Assembly (NCBI GenBank): GCA_015493215.1
Contig: WGDP01000328.1
Span: forward strand, 1 to 35,032
DNA length: 35,032 nucleotides
From: Bacteroidales bacterium
GTDB taxonomy: Bacteria; Bacteroidota; Bacteroidia; Bacteroidales; F082
Direction: 5' to 3'
Shown here one piece after another: positions 414-11,566 of this stretch. The first letter of the stretch is position 1, and every line of letters begins with the position of its first letter. The notes beneath the pieces are model-generated. The model was not told the DNA's origin and did not search any database. It saw only the letters and a list, made by a program, of their open reading frames with translations. A program made the translations under genes and the position numbers.

Positions 414-1067
414 TCAAAGTTCGCCCCTGTGTTCAAAAGCATACTTAATCAAAGCATGGGTTCCGTGGATGTTTAGCTTGTTGCAGATATTGAGCCGGTG
501 TTTTTCAATGGTTTTAACACTCACATACAATTGTTTGGCAATCTCTTTGCTGGTTTTACTTTCCGAAATGAGTTTTAAAATATTTTTTTCAGCAGTGGTA
601 AGCATGCTTATGTTGGCCTGTTCCTCTTGTTTTTTCTTGATGTTGTTTTCACGGTTCAGCAGGAATCCGGAAATAGCAGGACAGATGTAATGATGCCCGT
701 CCAGAACCGATTGGATAGCAATTTTGATTTCTGCCACTGCATTTTCTTTTAGCACATAACCCATCACCCCCATATCGACTGCGCGGTTAAAAAGATGCTC
801 ATCTTTATACATGGTCAGAATGATGATTTTGGTATCCATCTTAAGCCTTTTGCATTCCTGAGCAGCATCCAGGCCGTTCAATACCGGCATGTCAATATCA
901 AAAATCGCCACGTCAAAGATTTGTTCTTTCATAAACTCCAGAGCCAGTGCCCCGTTTTCGGCCTCGGCAACAAAAAAATCTCCGGGGGTTTCTTCCAACA
1001 GATCTTTTAACCCTTTTCTGAAAAGCGGATGATCATCAGCAATTATTATTTTCACCTTATTTTCCAT
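414..1067 (-). CDS. NarL/FixJ-type response regulator
   Basis: A 217-residue DNA-binding response regulator. The N-terminal receiver (about residues 4-120) has the acidic pair D11-D12, the phosphoacceptor D57 in FDIDMP, T85 in ILT and K107 in YVLK, so all the canonical phosphorylation residues are present. The C-terminal part (about 150-212) is a LuxR-type helix-turn-helix with the typical TTAEKNILKLISE and SKEIAKQLYVSVKTIEKHR pattern. Its ATG lies inside the end of the upstream histidine kinase gene (11-nt overlap), so the two are very likely co-transcribed and translationally coupled. It is the obvious cytoplasmic partner of that kinase. Target genes cannot be read from the sequence. Confidence 0.95.
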   Translation of the reverse strand: MENKVKIIIADDHPLFRKGLKDLLEETPGDFFVAEAENGALALEFMKEQIFDVAIFDIDMPVLNGLDAAQECKRLKMDTKIIILTMYKDEHLFNRAVDMGVMGYVLKENAVAEIKIAIQSVLDGHHYICPAISGFLLNRENNIKKKQEEQANISMLTTAEKNILKLISESKTSKEIAKQLYVSVKTIEKHRLNICNKLNIHGTHALIKYAFEHRGEL

Positions 1068-4000
1068 ATTTCACAGGAATTTTTATAAAAATATTTGTTC
1101 CTCTACCTGCAGAAGACCGGATGTCAAATTTACCATTTAATATCCTAACACGTTCTGCAATTCCCGACAATCCGAAGCCGAATTTACGGTCGAATAATTT
1201 TTCATCACTTTCGCCCATGCCAATGCCATCATCCTTAATGGTAATGACAAGAAAATTATCCTGTAAAAGCAGAGTAATGACTGCTTCATCGGCCTTTGAA
1301 TGTTTTATGATGTTGTTTAGGCATTCCTGAACAATCCGGTAGATCTGTATTTCGCTCTTTTCCGGAAATAATTGGTCAATGCTGTCCGAATGAAAATGAA
1401 AAATAGTATTACTGGTTTTATCCATGTCTTCAATCATGGCTCCGATGGCTCGTGTCAATCCCAGCCGGTCAATCAGATAAGGCCGGAGGTTTCTGGAAAT
1501 ATGCCGAATTTCGTCAATGGTGTTTTGCGACTTTTCGGATATATTACTCAACAACTGATTTGCCTGCTCTTTATTTCTTCTCTGTAAGGCCAATGTGCTG
1601 AGATTTTTTATAATCAGCAGATCCTGCCCCACGGCATCGTGCAACTCTTTGGCAATGCGTGTTTGTTCAGCTTCCTGCGATTCCAATAACTGCTCGGTAA
1701 ACTTCTCTTTTTGTCTTTTTTGTGCTTCAAGGTGATTAATCCGGCGGCGATAAAAGGCATAAAGCAAAAATATCAGGAACAGAACAAGCGCTATTTTGAA
1801 GACTGTGGTTCGCCAGAACGGGGGTACAATTTCAACCGGTATGGAAAGCTCATTTTGGCTCCACATACCATCGGAGTTGGTTCCCTTTACCTGAAAAGTA
1901 TAAATTCCGGGATCAATATTTGTAAAAGTGGCCATGCGCTGGCTTGCATTGGTATAAATCCATTTGTCCTGAAAACCTTTCAGCCGGTAGGCATACTTGT
2001 TTTTCATGGGATTGGTGTAATCCAGCGAAGCAAACCGAAAAGCAAAAACATTGTCTTTATAATTTAATTTTATGGCACCCTCAGGGTTCAAAAATCGGGA
2101 AAGTACAACCGGCTTATTAAACAAAAGAAATTGAGTTATTACCACCCTTGGATTATAGGTGCTGTTCTTTAAATCTTCAGGAAAAAAAGAAGTTACCCCT
2201 TTTATGCCTCCGAAAAACAGTTTGCCGTTACTTGTTTCAAGGTAGGCACCTGTATTAAATTCATTGCTTTGAAGCCCGTCATTGAAATCATAGTTTTTAA
2301 ACGATAACTTTTGTGGGTTAAACTTCGACAACCCTTTGTTGGTACTCAGCCAAAGGTTTCCCCGGCCATCTTCCAGAATACCGTAAACCACATCGTTGGG
2401 GAGGCCGCTTTGCGTAGTAAGCCGGATAAACTTATTGGTATTTGAGTCAAATTTATTCAAGCCACCACCGTTTGTCCCAATCCACATATTCCCCATTTTA
2501 TCTTTTGTAATGCATTTTATGCTGTTGCTGCTGATACAATTGGTATCGCCGGGAGTATATAGATACCGTTTTATTTTACCGGAAAAGGGATTAAAGAGCG
2601 AAAGGCCTGAAGCGCTTGTTCCAATCCAGATTCCTTTCGGAAAATCAATAAACATTGCAGTAATGGCAGCAGGTAAAAACCCTTTTTTTTCATCAAAATA
2701 AAAATAATGTTTGTATTTTCCTGATGACAAAACATATTCATCCAACCCTTTGTTGGTTGCCAGCCACAAATTGCCTGCTTTGTCATACTTCATATTATAA
2801 ACTAACTTTCCATAAAAGGAAGCATCACTAATGGTATCCGAGCCATAAATTCTTTTATAGGTGTTATTTAGCGTATTGTAAGCAATTATCCCCGATGACT
2901 TATCGCTCATCCACAACACATTTTTCTCATGCGGAGACTTGGCTATAGTAAAAACTGCAAAGCTCGGAAGAGTGATTTCTTTTCCGTTGGTCTTATTTAC
3001 AAACTTTGCCTTCGTTACTATGCCCGTTTTACTATTTAGTTTATCCAGTCCTCCGTATCCGCCAATCCAGCTATTTTTGTTTTCATCCTCATAAAAGGTA
3101 GTAACGCTGGCAAAACTTAATTTTTTTTTGTTTTTGGAGGTAAAAAGATAATTTTCAAATTGCAATTCCTTAAAGTTTTTTTTCACAATGCCGAAGCCGT
3201 TGGTGCCAATCCACATATTTCCTGAAACATCTTTTAACAAACTAATGATGCGACCCGAATGCGTACCGGTAAAAAGAGGACTTATATCTTCAAATACCGA
3301 TACCGAATCTTTATTAAGGTCATATTCAAACAACAAACCGGGATTAATAAAGTTGGAGAAAAACAACTTCCCTTTCACGGCCATCAGGGATTTGATAACC
3401 AGGAAATCCTTTTTCCTTCCCGGAAGTTTTATTAACGAACGGGTCTCATCATTGTAGTAATAAATCCCATCCAGCGTACCGGCAAACACCTCTCCGTTTT
3501 CATTAACTGCTATAGTAGTAATTACCGGATATTCAGAGGGTTCTTCAGATTTAATTTTTGACAGTTGTTTTTTCTCATAATCAAACCTGTAAAGTCCGTC
3601 ATTCAAAATTCCTATCCAAATGTTTCCCCTGTTGTCGCAGGCAATGGTCCTTACATTATTGATATCTTCTTTATCAGGATAAAATTGTTCAGGAAAAAAC
3701 CGTTCGTTAACCCCTGTCTTTATGTTAAAACGATTAAACCCATGGGTAGTCGAAATCCACAAAACCGTATCACTCTCGTTTTGTTCAAGCGCCAGACCCG
3801 TAATTGTATTACTTGATAAAGTAGCAGAATCATTGGGGATAGAGCTGTAAACCGTAAAACGTTTTGTAACCGGATTAAACTTATTAAGACCACCGCCAAA
3901 AGTTCCAATCCAAAGGTTTCCGGATTTATCCTCAGTAATTGCCCGTACATTATTATTGCTTAAACTCCGGTTGTTCCCTGGCTGATGGCGAAACACTTCA

Positions 4001-4197
4001 AATTCATACCCGTCGTATTTATTGAGTCCGTCTTTGGTGCCAAACCATATATATCCCATCTGATCCTGATAAATGCAATAAATTAAATTCTGTGACAATC
4101 CGTCTTCAATCGTAAGTATCTGATTATGTTTAAGCCCCTGTGACAACAAAGCAACAGGAAATATAATAATCAGCAGAAACGTTACAAATTGTTTCAT
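1057..4197 (-). CDS. Propeller-domain sensor histidine kinase (Reg_prop/Y_Y_Y/HisKA_3)
   Basis: A 1046-residue membrane sensor kinase. Residues 1-20 form a signal peptide. Residues of about 25-700 contain many repeats of the two-component-regulator propeller type (motifs like GNLWIGTFGGGLNKF and GNMWIGTNGGGLNKF), expected to fold as periplasmic beta-propellers. A Y_Y_Y domain spans about 725-788. One membrane segment lies near 799-816, then a coiled linker and a HisKA_3 dimerisation domain with the phosphoaccepting His853 in KELHDAVGQD. The HATPase region has the N box (QECLNNIIKHS, about 958-968) and G boxes (DDGIGMG near 989, GFGLSGIAERV near 1007). Unlike hybrid systems of polysaccharide-utilisation loci it has no fused receiver or AraC domain; the regulator is encoded separately and overlaps its 3' end. 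No carbohydrate-use genes lie nearby, so the signal is unknown. Confidence 0.95.
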   Translation of the reverse strand: MKQFVTFLLIIIFPVALLSQGLKHNQILTIEDGLSQNLIYCIYQDQMGYIWFGTKDGLNKYDGYEFEVFRHQPGNNRSLSNNNVRAITEDKSGNLWIGTFGGGLNKFNPVTKRFTVYSSIPNDSATLSSNTITGLALEQNESDTVLWISTTHGFNRFNIKTGVNERFFPEQFYPDKEDINNVRTIACDNRGNIWIGILNDGLYRFDYEKKQLSKIKSEEPSEYPVITTIAVNENGEVFAGTLDGIYYYNDETRSLIKLPGRKKDFLVIKSLMAVKGKLFFSNFINPGLLFEYDLNKDSVSVFEDISPLFTGTHSGRIISLLKDVSGNMWIGTNGFGIVKKNFKELQFENYLFTSKNKKKLSFASVTTFYEDENKNSWIGGYGGLDKLNSKTGIVTKAKFVNKTNGKEITLPSFAVFTIAKSPHEKNVLWMSDKSSGIIAYNTLNNTYKRIYGSDTISDASFYGKLVYNMKYDKAGNLWLATNKGLDEYVLSSGKYKHYFYFDEKKGFLPAAITAMFIDFPKGIWIGTSASGLSLFNPFSGKIKRYLYTPGDTNCISSNSIKCITKDKMGNMWIGTNGGGLNKFDSNTNKFIRLTTQSGLPNDVVYGILEDGRGNLWLSTNKGLSKFNPQKLSFKNYDFNDGLQSNEFNTGAYLETSNGKLFFGGIKGVTSFFPEDLKNSTYNPRVVITQFLLFNKPVVLSRFLNPEGAIKLNYKDNVFAFRFASLDYTNPMKNKYAYRLKGFQDKWIYTNASQRMATFTNIDPGIYTFQVKGTNSDGMWSQNELSIPVEIVPPFWRTTVFKIALVLFLIFLLYAFYRRRINHLEAQKRQKEKFTEQLLESQEAEQTRIAKELHDAVGQDLLIIKNLSTLALQRRNKEQANQLLSNISEKSQNTIDEIRHISRNLRPYLIDRLGLTRAIGAMIEDMDKTSNTIFHFHSDSIDQLFPEKSEIQIYRIVQECLNNIIKHSKADEAVITLLLQDNFLVITIKDDGIGMGESDEKLFDRKFGFGLSGIAERVRILNGKFDIRSSAGRGTNIFIKIPVKYGK

Positions 4198-7420: not shown

Positions 7421-8077
7421 CTAATCCAACTCAATTATGTTATTTTTCAAAGCAAACTTTACCAAATCAACCGTGGTTTTCAGGTTGATTTTTTTCATAA
7501 TGTTGTTTTTATGCGTTTCAACGGTTCGGATGGAAATAAAAAGTTTATCCGCTATTTCACGGTTGGACAATCCTTCGCCAAAGTTTTTTAAAACCTCAAG
7601 TTCGCGTGGCGAAAGCTCCTGTTGCCTTTGTTGCTTCTCGGCTGTATCGTTGCCCTTTTGATCCAGATAGTTATTAAGCAAAATGTTGGTGATGGTTTTG
7701 GCATAAAACTCATAACCGTTTCGAAGCGTGTAAATGGCTTCTAATATTTCAGAGCGGTTTGTGTCGCTGCTCAAATGTCCTTTTGCTCCGGCTTTTATCA
7801 GTTTTAATATAAACTTTTCGTTGTTGTAAAGCGAGAGTACCAACACTTTAACTTTTGGGAACAACCCTGTAAGTTTTTTAATGTTATCAATGTTTGCCAT
7901 GTCGGGGCTGTGGAAAATAGCCAACACCACATGCACCGGTTCAAACCGTATGGTTTTTGTTAAGTCGTCGAATGTTTGATGACAACCCGAAATTTCAATT
8001 TCATCGGCACCGTTCAGCAAAGCCGAAACAGCATCGCAAATAACAGGGTGTTTTTCAACCAGGGCAACTTTAATCAT
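7421..8077 (-). CDS. LuxR-family regulator with degenerate receiver domain
   Basis: A 218-residue protein with the length and layout of NarL-type regulators: a receiver-like domain (about 1-120) and a C-terminal LuxR helix-turn-helix (about 150-212; LSPRELEVLKNFGEGLSNREIADKLF, then RTVETHKNNIMKKI). The receiver lacks the phosphorylation chemistry. The acidic pair is replaced by E8-K9, the phosphoacceptor position reads VVLAIFHSPDM with Ile54 where Asp is expected, and the conserved Lys is Ser104 (GHLSSD). Ser82 remains at the Thr/Ser position. It should therefore act without Asp phosphorylation, like other atypical receivers. It is divergent from the receiver/ATP-grasp gene at 8153 with facing promoter elements, which hints at linked regulation. 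No kinase gene is adjacent. Confidence 0.92.
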   Translation of the reverse strand: MIKVALVEKHPVICDAVSALLNGADEIEISGCHQTFDDLTKTIRFEPVHVVLAIFHSPDMANIDNIKKLTGLFPKVKVLVLSLYNNEKFILKLIKAGAKGHLSSDTNRSEILEAIYTLRNGYEFYAKTITNILLNNYLDQKGNDTAEKQQRQQELSPRELEVLKNFGEGLSNREIADKLFISIRTVETHKNNIMKKINLKTTVDLVKFALKNNIIELD

Positions 8078-8152: not shown

Positions 8153-11100
8153 ATGGGCAAGATCAAAAAATTATCCTATTTAAACCTGCTTGAAATAATC
8201 AGCAAAATCAACGATATTGTTAAACAAAACAAAAATATCGATTTAACATTTACTGAAATTGCTGAAGCAGCCAATCATTACAGAACGGAAAATCAGGCCA
8301 TATTTCTTCGGTTTATTTACAACAATAAAGAGTATAAAACCCCCGGTTTTAAGCATACATCTTTTTGCAGAGAACGCTTTTTTGAAACACTTACAGGCAA
8401 CAAAGGGTATGTTCAGGTTTGCCGGAGTGTACCCACTGCCAACGATAAAAATGTTGTAAACGATCAGGAGTATTTTGTTAATTCGCTTACTAATTTAATA
8501 GTGAGGCACCTAAATACTTACGAAGCACGTGATGAAGATAGTGAAGGTATTGGCAGCTATCAGACAAATGATAGTAAACCTGAAATATTAAGCAGTGCTT
8601 TTTTGCAAAAATTCCTTAATAAGGACACCTTTAGCCGCGATATTTATCACGATTTGATGCCCTTTAAAGTAAAAGAGATATTGTTGATTTCCAGTCTGTA
8701 CGATGCCTATTCCATTGAGCGCGAAGGACGCTTTACCGAGCATATGCTGGGGCAGTACGGGCAGTTAAACCTCACCTCATTTCCGCGAATTACGGGTGCA
8801 GCAACCATTAGTCAGGCTTTTACACTCCTTAAGCAAAAGCATTTCGATTTAATAATTTATATGGTTGGGGTTGACAAGCAAACGCCCATGGTAGTTAGCG
8901 AGCAAATTAAAAACAAATATCCCTACATCCCTATTTATCTGTTGCTTAACAATAACAGCGATGTGGGATACTTTAACCGGCAGGCTCAAAAGCTCAGCTT
9001 TATCGATCGGGTATTTGCCTGGAATGGCGATTCCAATATTTTCTTTTCAATGATTAAGCTGTTGGAGGATAAAATTAATGTTAAAAACGATACACACCTT
9101 GCACAGGTCAGGGTACTGCTTTTGGTTGAAGATTCTTCGGTTTACTATTCGCGATATCTTTCGTTTTTGTATAAGGTGTTGATGGAGCAAACCAAGCAAA
9201 TAATTGAAGATATCAGTGCCGATGAGCTTTACAAAGTACTTAGGATGCGAGCCAGACCTAAAATATTGTTGGCTTCTACTTACGAAGAAGCAACCGATAT
9301 CATTAATAGATACAAAAACTACATGCTCTGTTTGATTACCGATGTTAAGTACGAAAAGAGAGGGGTGGTGGACGAAAATGCCGGGGTAAAGTTGCTGAAA
9401 TATACCCGGAGTGTGCTTAAAAATTTGCCCGTGATTATTCAGTCGTCTGATATTACTTACGAAAAAATTGCCAAAGCCAACAATTCACTTTTTATTTACA
9501 AGAACTCCGAAACCCTTTATGAGGAATTTCGTCAATTTATTACAAACTATCTTGGTTTTGGCGATTTTGTGTTTAAAGATTCAAACGGAAACGAAATTGC
9601 ACGGGCTACAAACATGCGTCAGTTTGAAAATCAGCTTAAACGTATTCCTGAAGATTCGTTGTTGTTTCATTCCAGCCGCGATCATTTTTCGATGTGGCTG
9701 ATGGCGAGAGGAGAAATAAGAGCCGCAAGAATAATTAATCCGAAAAAAGTTTCTGACTTTAGCAGCCCTGAAGAGTTGCGGACCGCCCTTTTAAGTATGA
9801 TTAAGGAACATAGAAATGAGAAGGAAAAAGGCAATATTATTCCCTTTGATGAGGGGGTAGATGTTTCCGAAAACAATATTTTTACCCTTGCTGACGGTTC
9901 GTTGGGCGGCAAAGGCCGTGGGCTGGCATTTATTAATGCACTTATTCATAATTACGAATTTAACAAACACATTCCAGACATAAAAATTCGTACCCCGATT
10001 ACTTTTATTATCGGCACCTACGAGTTTGAAACATTTATTAAAAATAACAAACTGTTAAAACCGGCCATTGAGGAGGCGGATTTTGCCAATGTTCAAAAAG
10101 CCTTTCTGGAAAAAAAGTTAAGTACCGAAACCATAAAAAAAATTAGCCTTTTACTGGATATTATAAAAAAACCTATTGCCGTTCGTTCTTCCGGTTTGTA
10201 TGAAGATTCGCTAACGCAGCCCTTTGCCGGCATTTTTGAAACATACCTGCTTCCCAACAATCATCCAAACAAAAACAAGCGGTTAAAACAGGTGTGCGAT
10301 GCGGTTAAAATGGTTTATGCTTCGGTATATTCAAATATGGCCAAAGGATATGTAAGAGCGGTAAACTATAAAATTGAAGACGAAAAAATGGCGGTTATCA
10401 TTCAGGAGGTGGTGGGCAATGAGTTTGAAGGACTTTACTATCCCCATGTCAGTGGTGTGGCGCAATCGTATAACTTTTACCCTTTTGCCCATATGAAACC
10501 CGAAGAAGGATATGCTGTTGCAGCTGTTGGCCTTGGTAAATATGTGGTTGAAGGTAACAAGGCATTTCGGTTTTCACCCAAATATCCGGCCATCGAAATT
10601 AATTCGCCAAAGGATCAGTTCCGTAATTCACAAGTCAAATTTTTTGCAGTTGATTTACGAAAAAAGGACATAAACATTCTCGAAGGTGAAATGGCAGGCC
10701 TTGCTTATGAAGACATCAGCGTAGCCGAAAAACATGGCACCATTAAACACTGTGTTTCGGTATATAACCCTGATAACAACATGATTTATCCCGGAACAAG
10801 CAAAGTGGGGCCTCGCATAGTTAACTTTGCCAACATTTTAAAATACAACTACATACCGTTGGCAAAAACCCTGGAAGTTACCATGGAACTTGGTAAAGAA
10901 GCCATGGGTACTGCCGTCGAAATTGAATATGCCGTTGATCTTACAAAAGACAAAGATGGCCTGGCATCCTTTTTTATACTTCAAATTAAACCGTTAATCG
11001 ATAGTAGTCAGGACTGTAATGTTGACTTAAATATGATTGACGATGAAAAAGTGGTTTTGTTGTCAAAACAGGGAATGGGCAATGGTGTTATAAAAGGTAT

Positions 11101-11566
11101 TAGCGACATCATTTATATCGATCCGAACGATTTTGACAAGAGCGCTACCGAAGAGATGGCTGAGGAGATTGAAGCGTTTAATGAAAAAATGATTGAAGAA
11201 AAACGAAATTATGTTTTAATTGGCCCGGGCAGATGGGGTACCCGCGATAAATGGATTGGTATTCCGGTAAAATGGCATCAGATTTCAAATGCCAAGGTTA
11301 TTGTTGAAACCAGCTTTCACAACTATCCGTTGGATGCTTCGCTCGGCTCTCATTTTTTTCATAATGTTACCAGCATGAATATTGGATACTTTACCGTTCA
11401 GTCGGAAAAGGGAACCGAAATAATAAATTATCAAAAATTACGACAAAAAAAGGTGGTGGGCAAAGGCCGTTATTTTACCCATGTGCGCTTTGAAGAGCCG
11501 CTTCAAATAAGAATGGACGGGCGTAAAAGAATTTATGTTATCCACGAAACGCTGGATGAAGTTTAA
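8153..11566 (+). CDS. Receiver-fused PEP/pyruvate-binding (PPDK N-terminal-like) protein
   Basis: An 1137-residue cytoplasmic protein. Residues of about 1-125 look like a small sensory, GAF-like fold (inferred). Residues of about 172-305 form a pseudo-receiver (IIYMVG where the Asp should be). Residues of about 318-465 form a second receiver with E326-D327, Asp397 in LITDVKY, S431/S432 and Lys450, so it may be phosphorylated. Residues of about 580-1000 resemble the ATP-grasp nucleotide-binding domain of pyruvate phosphate dikinase/PEP synthase (GGKGRGLAF at 585-593, VRSSGLYEDS at 677-686). A conserved GPGRWGTRD block lies near 1024. I cannot find the phosphohistidine swivel domain motif or the PEP-binding barrel, so it should not be called PEP synthase. 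A phosphotransfer or regulatory role is inferred. Confidence 0.85.
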   Translation: MGKIKKLSYLNLLEIISKINDIVKQNKNIDLTFTEIAEAANHYRTENQAIFLRFIYNNKEYKTPGFKHTSFCRERFFETLTGNKGYVQVCRSVPTANDKNVVNDQEYFVNSLTNLIVRHLNTYEARDEDSEGIGSYQTNDSKPEILSSAFLQKFLNKDTFSRDIYHDLMPFKVKEILLISSLYDAYSIEREGRFTEHMLGQYGQLNLTSFPRITGAATISQAFTLLKQKHFDLIIYMVGVDKQTPMVVSEQIKNKYPYIPIYLLLNNNSDVGYFNRQAQKLSFIDRVFAWNGDSNIFFSMIKLLEDKINVKNDTHLAQVRVLLLVEDSSVYYSRYLSFLYKVLMEQTKQIIEDISADELYKVLRMRARPKILLASTYEEATDIINRYKNYMLCLITDVKYEKRGVVDENAGVKLLKYTRSVLKNLPVIIQSSDITYEKIAKANNSLFIYKNSETLYEEFRQFITNYLGFGDFVFKDSNGNEIARATNMRQFENQLKRIPEDSLLFHSSRDHFSMWLMARGEIRAARIINPKKVSDFSSPEELRTALLSMIKEHRNEKEKGNIIPFDEGVDVSENNIFTLADGSLGGKGRGLAFINALIHNYEFNKHIPDIKIRTPITFIIGTYEFETFIKNNKLLKPAIEEADFANVQKAFLEKKLSTETIKKISLLLDIIKKPIAVRSSGLYEDSLTQPFAGIFETYLLPNNHPNKNKRLKQVCDAVKMVYASVYSNMAKGYVRAVNYKIEDEKMAVIIQEVVGNEFEGLYYPHVSGVAQSYNFYPFAHMKPEEGYAVAAVGLGKYVVEGNKAFRFSPKYPAIEINSPKDQFRNSQVKFFAVDLRKKDINILEGEMAGLAYEDISVAEKHGTIKHCVSVYNPDNNMIYPGTSKVGPRIVNFANILKYNYIPLAKTLEVTMELGKEAMGTAVEIEYAVDLTKDKDGLASFFILQIKPLIDSSQDCNVDLNMIDDEKVVLLSKQGMGNGVIKGISDIIYIDPNDFDKSATEEMAEEIEAFNEKMIEEKRNYVLIGPGRWGTRDKWIGIPVKWHQISNAKVIVETSFHNYPLDASLGSHFFHNVTSMNIGYFTVQSEKGTEIINYQKLRQKKVVGKGRYFTHVRFEEPLQIRMDGRKRIYVIHETLDEV

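Follow-up and report, generated by a model that had tools for sequence, protein, structure and literature searches.

A receiver–ATP-grasp fusion protein of a Bacteroidales bacterium belongs to a widespread family with a predicted phosphohistidine swivel and linkage to glutamate dehydrogenase

What might be the function of a protein in which sensory domains are joined to the ATP-binding module of a phosphoenolpyruvate (PEP) synthase, without the part that makes PEP? The question is raised by a 35,032-nucleotide stretch of DNA from a Bacteroidales bacterium (assembly GCA_015493215.1, contig WGDP01000328.1, positions 1 to 35,032 of the forward strand), referred to here as the window, in which a single open reading frame (8153-11566, + strand) encodes a receiver and ATP-grasp fusion of 1137 amino acids. 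An earlier note, made from the sequence alone, had proposed a receiver-controlled phosphotransfer enzyme, perhaps acting in trans, that lacked both the histidine domain and the PEP barrel of PEP synthase. The fusion is real and the barrel is absent, as described below, and the predicted structure contains a histidine swivel at the fold level. The idea of a controlled phosphotransfer enzyme is supported as an interpretation of the model, and linkage of the family to glutamate dehydrogenase (GDH) offers a candidate partner.

The family is widespread: a scan of one genome per species returned at least 587 related stretches, from which 80 loci were kept as a named set. These represent Bacteroidota, Ignavibacteriota, Calditrichota, Desulfobacterales, Gemmatimonadota, Krumholzibacteriota, Acidobacteriota, Bdellovibrionales, Spirochaetaceae, a Heimdallarchaeota metagenome-assembled genome (MAG) and others. 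Besides full-length proteins, the family contains a short class of about 555-604 amino acids comprising the ATP-grasp and swivel (PPDK_N spans residues 34-413 of the 584 in L148), and a class termed class-1060 (776-1066 amino acids as read) comprising an N-terminal region, ATP-grasp and swivel. Alignment A2 contains the window protein and 53 sequences chosen for spread from 75 usable loci (54 sequences in all), five of the 80 loci with a broken reading frame (L063, L069, L093, L101 and L102) having been excluded. Alignment A1 excludes L013 (in-frame stop) and L014, L016, L019, L022 and L029 (size). A search of the PDB with the single protein was near empty; the profile of A2 matched rifampin phosphotransferase (RPH), PEP synthase and receivers.

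Profile matches and a whole-protein AlphaFold2 model built from a 54-sequence alignment (mean pLDDT 85.3) gave the domain order GAF-like domain, pseudo-receiver, receiver, linker, ATP-grasp and phosphohistidine swivel, the first four making up the region before the ATP-grasp (Table 1). The N-terminal part, previously called sensor-like, has a GAF-like fold that matches residues 255-382 of DosP, which we take to be the GAF domain of that protein; the 24 homologues of alignment A1 begin later, near residue 150 of the window protein. The next domain is a pseudo-receiver, as had been suggested, with methionine at the phospho-acceptor position 237 and aspartate there in 0/54 aligned sequences. In the second receiver E326, D397 and K450 are present in 54/54 and D327 in 50/54, the remaining four having asparagine, so that the acidic pair, phospho-acceptor aspartate and lysine of a response regulator are all found, in agreement with the intact receiver described from the sequence. 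Pfam Response_reg (PF00072) touches the first receiver only, below the cut-off, and the second is supported by its fold. DUF5752, to which the linker has weak similarity, reaches its cut-off in the relatives L038, L053 and L056.

The nucleotide-binding domain expected from the sequence was recovered by PF01326 (PPDK_N) at residues 583-958 with an E value of 7.3e-38 and 131.1 bits, against a cut-off of 27. Residues K587, R678, E925 and Q944 are invariant in 80/80 chosen sequences of the three classes, a set in which 12 sequences failed the motif cut and were entered uncut. PF02896, the PEP/pyruvate barrel, gave no Pfam match in the window protein at E values up to 10 and the protein stops just after the swivel, indicating that there is no PEP barrel. 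These results bear on the possibility that the protein is an ordinary misannotated PEP synthase or PPDK, a reading that draws on the PF01326 match and on weak matches to PEP-synthase models but fails on the missing barrel, on NCBIfam PEP-synthase scores of at most 54.1 bits against cut-offs of 598-1063, and on the presence in the same genome of a separate PPDK, ended by the contig edge, with a canonical TSHAA swivel. An ordinary PEP synthase is ruled out by the absent barrel, and this explanation as a whole is highly improbable. A PPDK-like frame of 1376 amino acids in the window genome (G000:C264; L004, L141) has a long N-terminal part, PPDK_N and a canonical swivel motif, and PPDK-like frames of 1376-1405 amino acids are also found in relatives.

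The histidine domain had been reported absent, and the Pfam swivel profile PF00391 indeed gives no match in the window protein at E values up to 10; the two PF00391 places of the genome lie elsewhere. The structural comparisons gave a different answer. Residues 575-1134 of the whole model overlay residues 9-467 of PEP synthase 2ols, into its swivel, with Z 26.5 and a root-mean-square deviation (rmsd) of 3.7 over 356 residues. RPH chains scored Z 21-27 against the whole model (5hv1, Z 26.7), and PPDK chains reaching residue 505-514 scored Z 17-19 (1dik, to residue 514, Z 19.2). When residues 954-1137 were modelled alone (pLDDT 91.8), the best VIA match was the PPDK phosphoryl-carrier domain 2fm4 (Z 6.5, rmsd 3.6, 116/128 residues), and further PPDK chains, the RPH His domain and EIN-Ntr were also in the list. 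In a Foldseek search with the tail alone nothing matched at E 0.001 or better; LD-carboxypeptidases headed the list, and their C-terminal domain shares the swivelling beta/beta/alpha fold.

Within this domain H1067 is invariant, in 54/54 sequences of A2 and in 80/80 of the chosen set (63/63 full-length, 7/7 short and 10/10 class-1060). In the model it heads a helix, residues 1066-1074, that comes after a strand, which we take to be the topology of the PPDK carrier domain as well. The motif around it is mostly S-x-G-[S/T]-H-F-F, whereas the consensus around the histidine of PEP synthase is given as GGxT[S/C]H in PMC12167813; the regulatory threonine of the PEP synthase motif is glycine in this family. 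The motif is degenerate, and Pfam misses the swivel. Taken at the level of the overall fold, together with the conserved histidine, the model makes it very likely that a histidine swivel is present at the fold level and that its alleged absence is wrong. The earlier note had named a complete swivel together with a PEP-binding domain, or a lack of receiver folds in the predicted structure, as findings that would speak against it; the swivel was found at the fold level, the PEP-binding domain is absent and the receiver folds are present.

Clustering of neighbour genes across the named loci identified GDH and LuxR regulators, and GDH was the commonest neighbour family (42/80 loci; 41/80 within 3 kb in a tblastn recount). 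GDH-linked loci of the named set include Bacteroidota, Ignavibacteriota, Calditrichota, Desulfobacterales, Gemmatimonadota, Krumholzibacteriota, Bdellovibrionales, Eisenbacteria and the one Heimdallarchaeota MAG. In a phylum-wide draw the family was found in at least 49/296 genomes; at most two candidates were scored per genome, so that this figure and the copy counts per class are lower bounds. In the 49 family-bearing genomes PF00208 (GDH) places lie within 3 kb of 42/51 full-length, 9/11 short and 7/11 class-1060 genes, and 40/49 of the genomes show such linkage. Among the 42 linked full-length genes, 36 have their nearest GDH upstream in the same orientation. As a control, 0/97 PF00391 genes of the same genomes were within 20 kb of GDH, 20/97 sharing a contig with it; GDH hits of at least 106.9 bits were counted for both linkage and control. 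At about two strong GDH hits per 3-4 Mb genome, chance linkage was calculated to be well under 1%. Among genomes of the family and order to which the window belongs, 56/61 have the protein, usually as two paralogues, and in the five without it no GDH reaches 280 bits. The protein family is thus tied to GDH.

The two paralogues, type A (about 1140-1180 amino acids, like the window protein) and type B (about 1000 amino acids), are paired with different GDHs. In a quick tree, trimmed by aligned columns, the type A genes form one clade, and the type B genes form one clade together with two further Bacteroidales copies. The window protein falls in clade A (SH-aLRT 98), indicating that it is orthologous to the GDH-linked type A genes, and its paralogue on contig C270 falls in clade B. 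The N-termini of type A proteins vary, L056 having a PAS domain by Pfam. In a tree of GDHs, from which pieces below 200 amino acids were excluded, the Bacteroidales GDHs that neighbour type A genes group in one clade (99/93), which includes the GDH on C174 of the window genome, and those beside Bacteroidales type B genes form a separate clade (100/99) that includes the GDH on C306. The window genome therefore keeps both types, type 1 on C174 and type 2 on C306. The gene order GDH1, A, B, GDH2 was observed in seven loci (L041, L047, L051, L052, L057, L058 and L062), and in L056 with GDH1 in two pieces. In the relative G306, GDH occurs only in several pieces (C159, C225), some with in-frame stops, and a type B family gene lies on C226.

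The classes differ in their GDHs as well. For 40/42 linked full-length genes the nearest GDH scores at least 278 bits (about 450 amino acids); in the other two, G251 and G255, the nearest scores 231 bits and one of at least 281 bits also lies within 3 kb. The linked short (9) and class-1060 (7) genes have GDHs of 230-255 bits (about 428 amino acids), and a 100/100 branch splits the two kinds. Seven rows labelled by a full-length neighbour are exceptions that fall among the 428-amino-acid GDHs: six represent an additional 415-amino-acid GDH lying downstream of a full-length gene, in Ignavibacteriota, Calditrichota and one Bacteroidetes MAG, and the seventh, L066, sits between a full-length and a class-1060 gene. 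An operon-like order of GDH, short ATP-grasp/swivel protein and class-1060 protein was seen in L145-L149 and L151, several of them being truncated where the stretch ends.

A nucleotidyltransferase-type motif (FGS...SDIDL or close) is present at the C-terminus of 7/10 class-1060 proteins read; nucleotidyltransferase is the kind of domain used by GlnE and GlnD, which exert covalent control over nitrogen enzymes. The NTP_transf_2 profile matched L152, the sole class-1060 protein scanned with Pfam, with an E value of 2.8e-7, and the complete class-1060 protein of L145 has the motif at its end. The motif is absent from L155, L157 and L160; of these, L157 (2193-5369, - strand) is full length and adjoins GDH, and its C-terminal part differs from that of most others. 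No Pfam match to a nucleotidyltransferase was found in the window protein.

These observations are drawn together in a proposal, to which we give an even chance, that the window protein works as a histidine dikinase under signal control, with GDH as its target or partner. Input to the GAF-like domain, together with phosphorylation of D397 in the receiver, would determine whether the ATP-grasp phosphorylates H1067. By the residues checked, the protein could carry out the first half-reaction of PEP synthase and RPH, in which phosphate would move from ATP to H1067 on the swivel and ATP would be converted to AMP, with release of AMP and phosphate. This step follows what has been published for RPH and related enzymes (PMC4844700): the histidine attacks the ATP beta-phosphate within the ATP-grasp domain, and its own domain then swivels to an acceptor site. 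The swivel would then hand its phosphate to an outside partner. An acceptor in another molecule is expected because no acceptor domain is evident in the model, where the ATP-grasp (to about 953) passes straight into the swivel (from about 960), and because the short class suggests that ATP-grasp and swivel are the minimal unit. In view of the linkage and of how the clades pair, GDH would most likely be this partner or the enzyme served by the reaction. Computation supports the order of domains, the intact residues of receiver and ATP-grasp, the predicted swivel fold with its invariant histidine, and the linkage and clade-wise pairing with GDH; we infer that the module is catalytic and receiver-gated, that GDH is its target and which way the control runs. 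In the window genome the protein would serve the type 1 GDH and its type B paralogue the type 2 GDH. A more specific version, which we put forward only tentatively, is that the family covalently modifies GDH in trans, by phosphorylation or, in the nucleotidyltransferase class, by nucleotidylylation, each paralogue acting on its own GDH type; the family would then be an undescribed switch on ammonium assimilation, present across many bacterial phyla and in a Heimdallarchaeota MAG at least.

The linkage could also arise if the protein were a small-molecule dikinase that phosphorylates a GDH-related metabolite (2-oxoglutarate, glutamate or another acid), GDH then being a pathway neighbour and not itself modified. 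GDH acts on a 2-oxo acid, similar to pyruvate, as this explanation would want. The characterised enzymes with the ATP-grasp and swivel pair described in parts of PMC4844700 and PMC12167813 do act on small molecules: PEP synthase phosphorylates pyruvate, RPH rifampin and HpeHI phenols. However, no site for a second substrate is evident, since the full-length proteins lack an acceptor domain and the short class is about the size of ATP-grasp plus swivel, and input through a GAF-like domain and receivers fits a regulator. We consider a small-molecule dikinase rather unlikely.

Comparison with known systems places the protein among the histidine-swivel enzymes. In PEP synthase and PPDK, as in the window protein, the phosphohistidine swivel comes after the ATP-grasp, but the window protein has no PEP/pyruvate barrel, has the GAF-like domain and receivers in front, and belongs to a family often linked to GDH. 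ATP-grasp and histidine swivel are likewise shared with RPH, whose homologues are often misannotated as PEP synthases (passages of PMC4844700), and with the two-component aromatic dikinases HpeHI, CreHI and PpsAB. RPH and HpeHI differ in having a substrate-binding domain, located between ATP-grasp and swivel in RPH and with the swivel in HpeH, and none is evident here. The receiver–enzyme fusions PorX and PleD also join one or more receivers to an output enzyme, with matching receiver folds, but the output here is a dikinase-like module. With GlnE and GlnD the likeness would lie in regulatory modification at ammonium assimilation, as proposed here, and in the motif of most class-1060 relatives read, whereas here GDH would be the target, reached by ATP-grasp and histidine-swivel chemistry. 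The window protein is neither a PEP synthase, the barrel being absent, nor an RPH, the acceptor domain being absent; it is best called a histidine-swivel dikinase variant with a regulatory front end and, probably, a protein partner.

Several results weigh against the proposed GDH-directed dikinase. The tail-only Z score of 6.5 is modest: the tool warns that values below 8 may reflect a common arrangement, and other folds scored Z 5.5. Comparing profiles of the tail and of PPDK swivels gave no significant alignment, the ATP-grasp half also aligning poorly, so the swivel claim rests on the predicted structure and the invariant histidine. As regards GDH, 25 of the 49 named loci with 3 kb on both sides have none within 3 kb and 24 have one; the window gene, the C270 paralogue and both GDH genes of the window genome are non-adjacent; and among close relatives a family gene is within 4 kb of GDH in 19/55 genomes and for 10/41 type A genes (GDH hits of at least 109 bits, minus the broken G306 pieces; the last 12 family rows, class-1060 and fragments, excluded). 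GDHs of at least 290 bits are found in 13/20 class members without a family match, the 20 being from 247 such genomes of the phylum draw, and GDH does without the family in some genomes. Because GDH is common in genomes without the family, the idea that it strictly marks the family was rejected. The position of R337 in PPDK is occupied by K946 in the window protein, with lysine in 23/54 and arginine in 31/54 aligned sequences, from which type A could be catalytically altered.

That substitution, seen in the window protein and many relatives, would suit a non-catalytic allosteric regulator, in which the ATP-grasp and swivel sense ATP/AMP and the protein binds GDH as a switch, type A being perhaps a degraded enzyme; receivers, moreover, usually work through protein contacts. 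The invariance of K587, R678, E925, Q944 and H1067 across all three classes, however, is hard to explain without phosphohistidine chemistry, and we regard an allosteric regulator of this kind as unlikely.

Table 1. Domains of the fusion protein and nearby genes of the window, with the evidence for each
Feature	Coordinates	Strand	Evidence
GAF-like N-terminal sensor, about residues 5-131	8153..8545	+	VIA match to DosP 255-382, Z 13.2, rmsd 2.9, 120 aligned
Pseudo-receiver, about residues 173-290	8669..9022	+	Sub-threshold Response_reg 208-265; PleD tandem-receiver matches; column counts 230-245
Receiver, about residues 319-468, with E326, D327, D397, S431, K450	9107..9556	+	Solved receiver structures up to Z 13.7; column counts
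Linker, residues 484-558, weak DUF5752 similarity	9602..9826	+	Pfam; H506, S513, W515, R519 invariant in A2
ATP-grasp (PPDK_N) nucleotide-binding domain	9875..11011	+	PF01326; RPH, PEP synthase and PPDK structures, Z about 17-27
Predicted divergent phosphohistidine swivel, about residues 960-1137	11030..11563	+	Tail model and VIA match to PPDK carrier domain
H1067, candidate phosphorylated histidine	11351..11353	+	Column counts; second residue of helix 1066-1074
LuxR-type regulator, transcribed divergently from the fusion gene, receiver without phospho-acceptor Asp	7421..8077	-	Similar regulators in nine other family loci
Reg_prop/Y_Y_Y histidine kinase	1057-4197	-	Two-component pair with 414-1067
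LuxR response regulator with intact phospho-acceptor Asp	414-1067	-	Two-component pair with 1057-4197

At the window locus the neighbours are a polyphosphate kinase, a LuxR regulator and a type IX secretion plug protein. GDH is not adjacent to the family gene there, which hid the linkage from the earlier reader. LuxR regulators similar to that of the window adjoin the family gene in nine other loci, seven of them upstream on the opposite strand (L036-L039, L042, L049 and L055; an extra reading frame separates the two genes in L036 and L055), and the other two downstream (L059 and L064). Among these ten regulators the phospho-acceptor aspartate is kept only in L042. The histidine kinase and response regulator pair of the window (Table 1) is possibly a phosphodonor system near the dikinase gene.

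Neither the family nor its GDH link was found described in titles and abstract openings of the open-licence literature, for the part of the matches covered. GDH is one of the central routes by which ammonium enters metabolism, and its neighbourhood with this family in several phyla suggests an undescribed control of nitrogen assimilation. If the proposal is true, a signal-gated, ATP-dependent partner of GDH would be a new layer of nitrogen control in many phyla, paired with GDH clade by clade, and would provide a function for hundreds of genes that have PEP-synthase-like domains without the PEP-making part.

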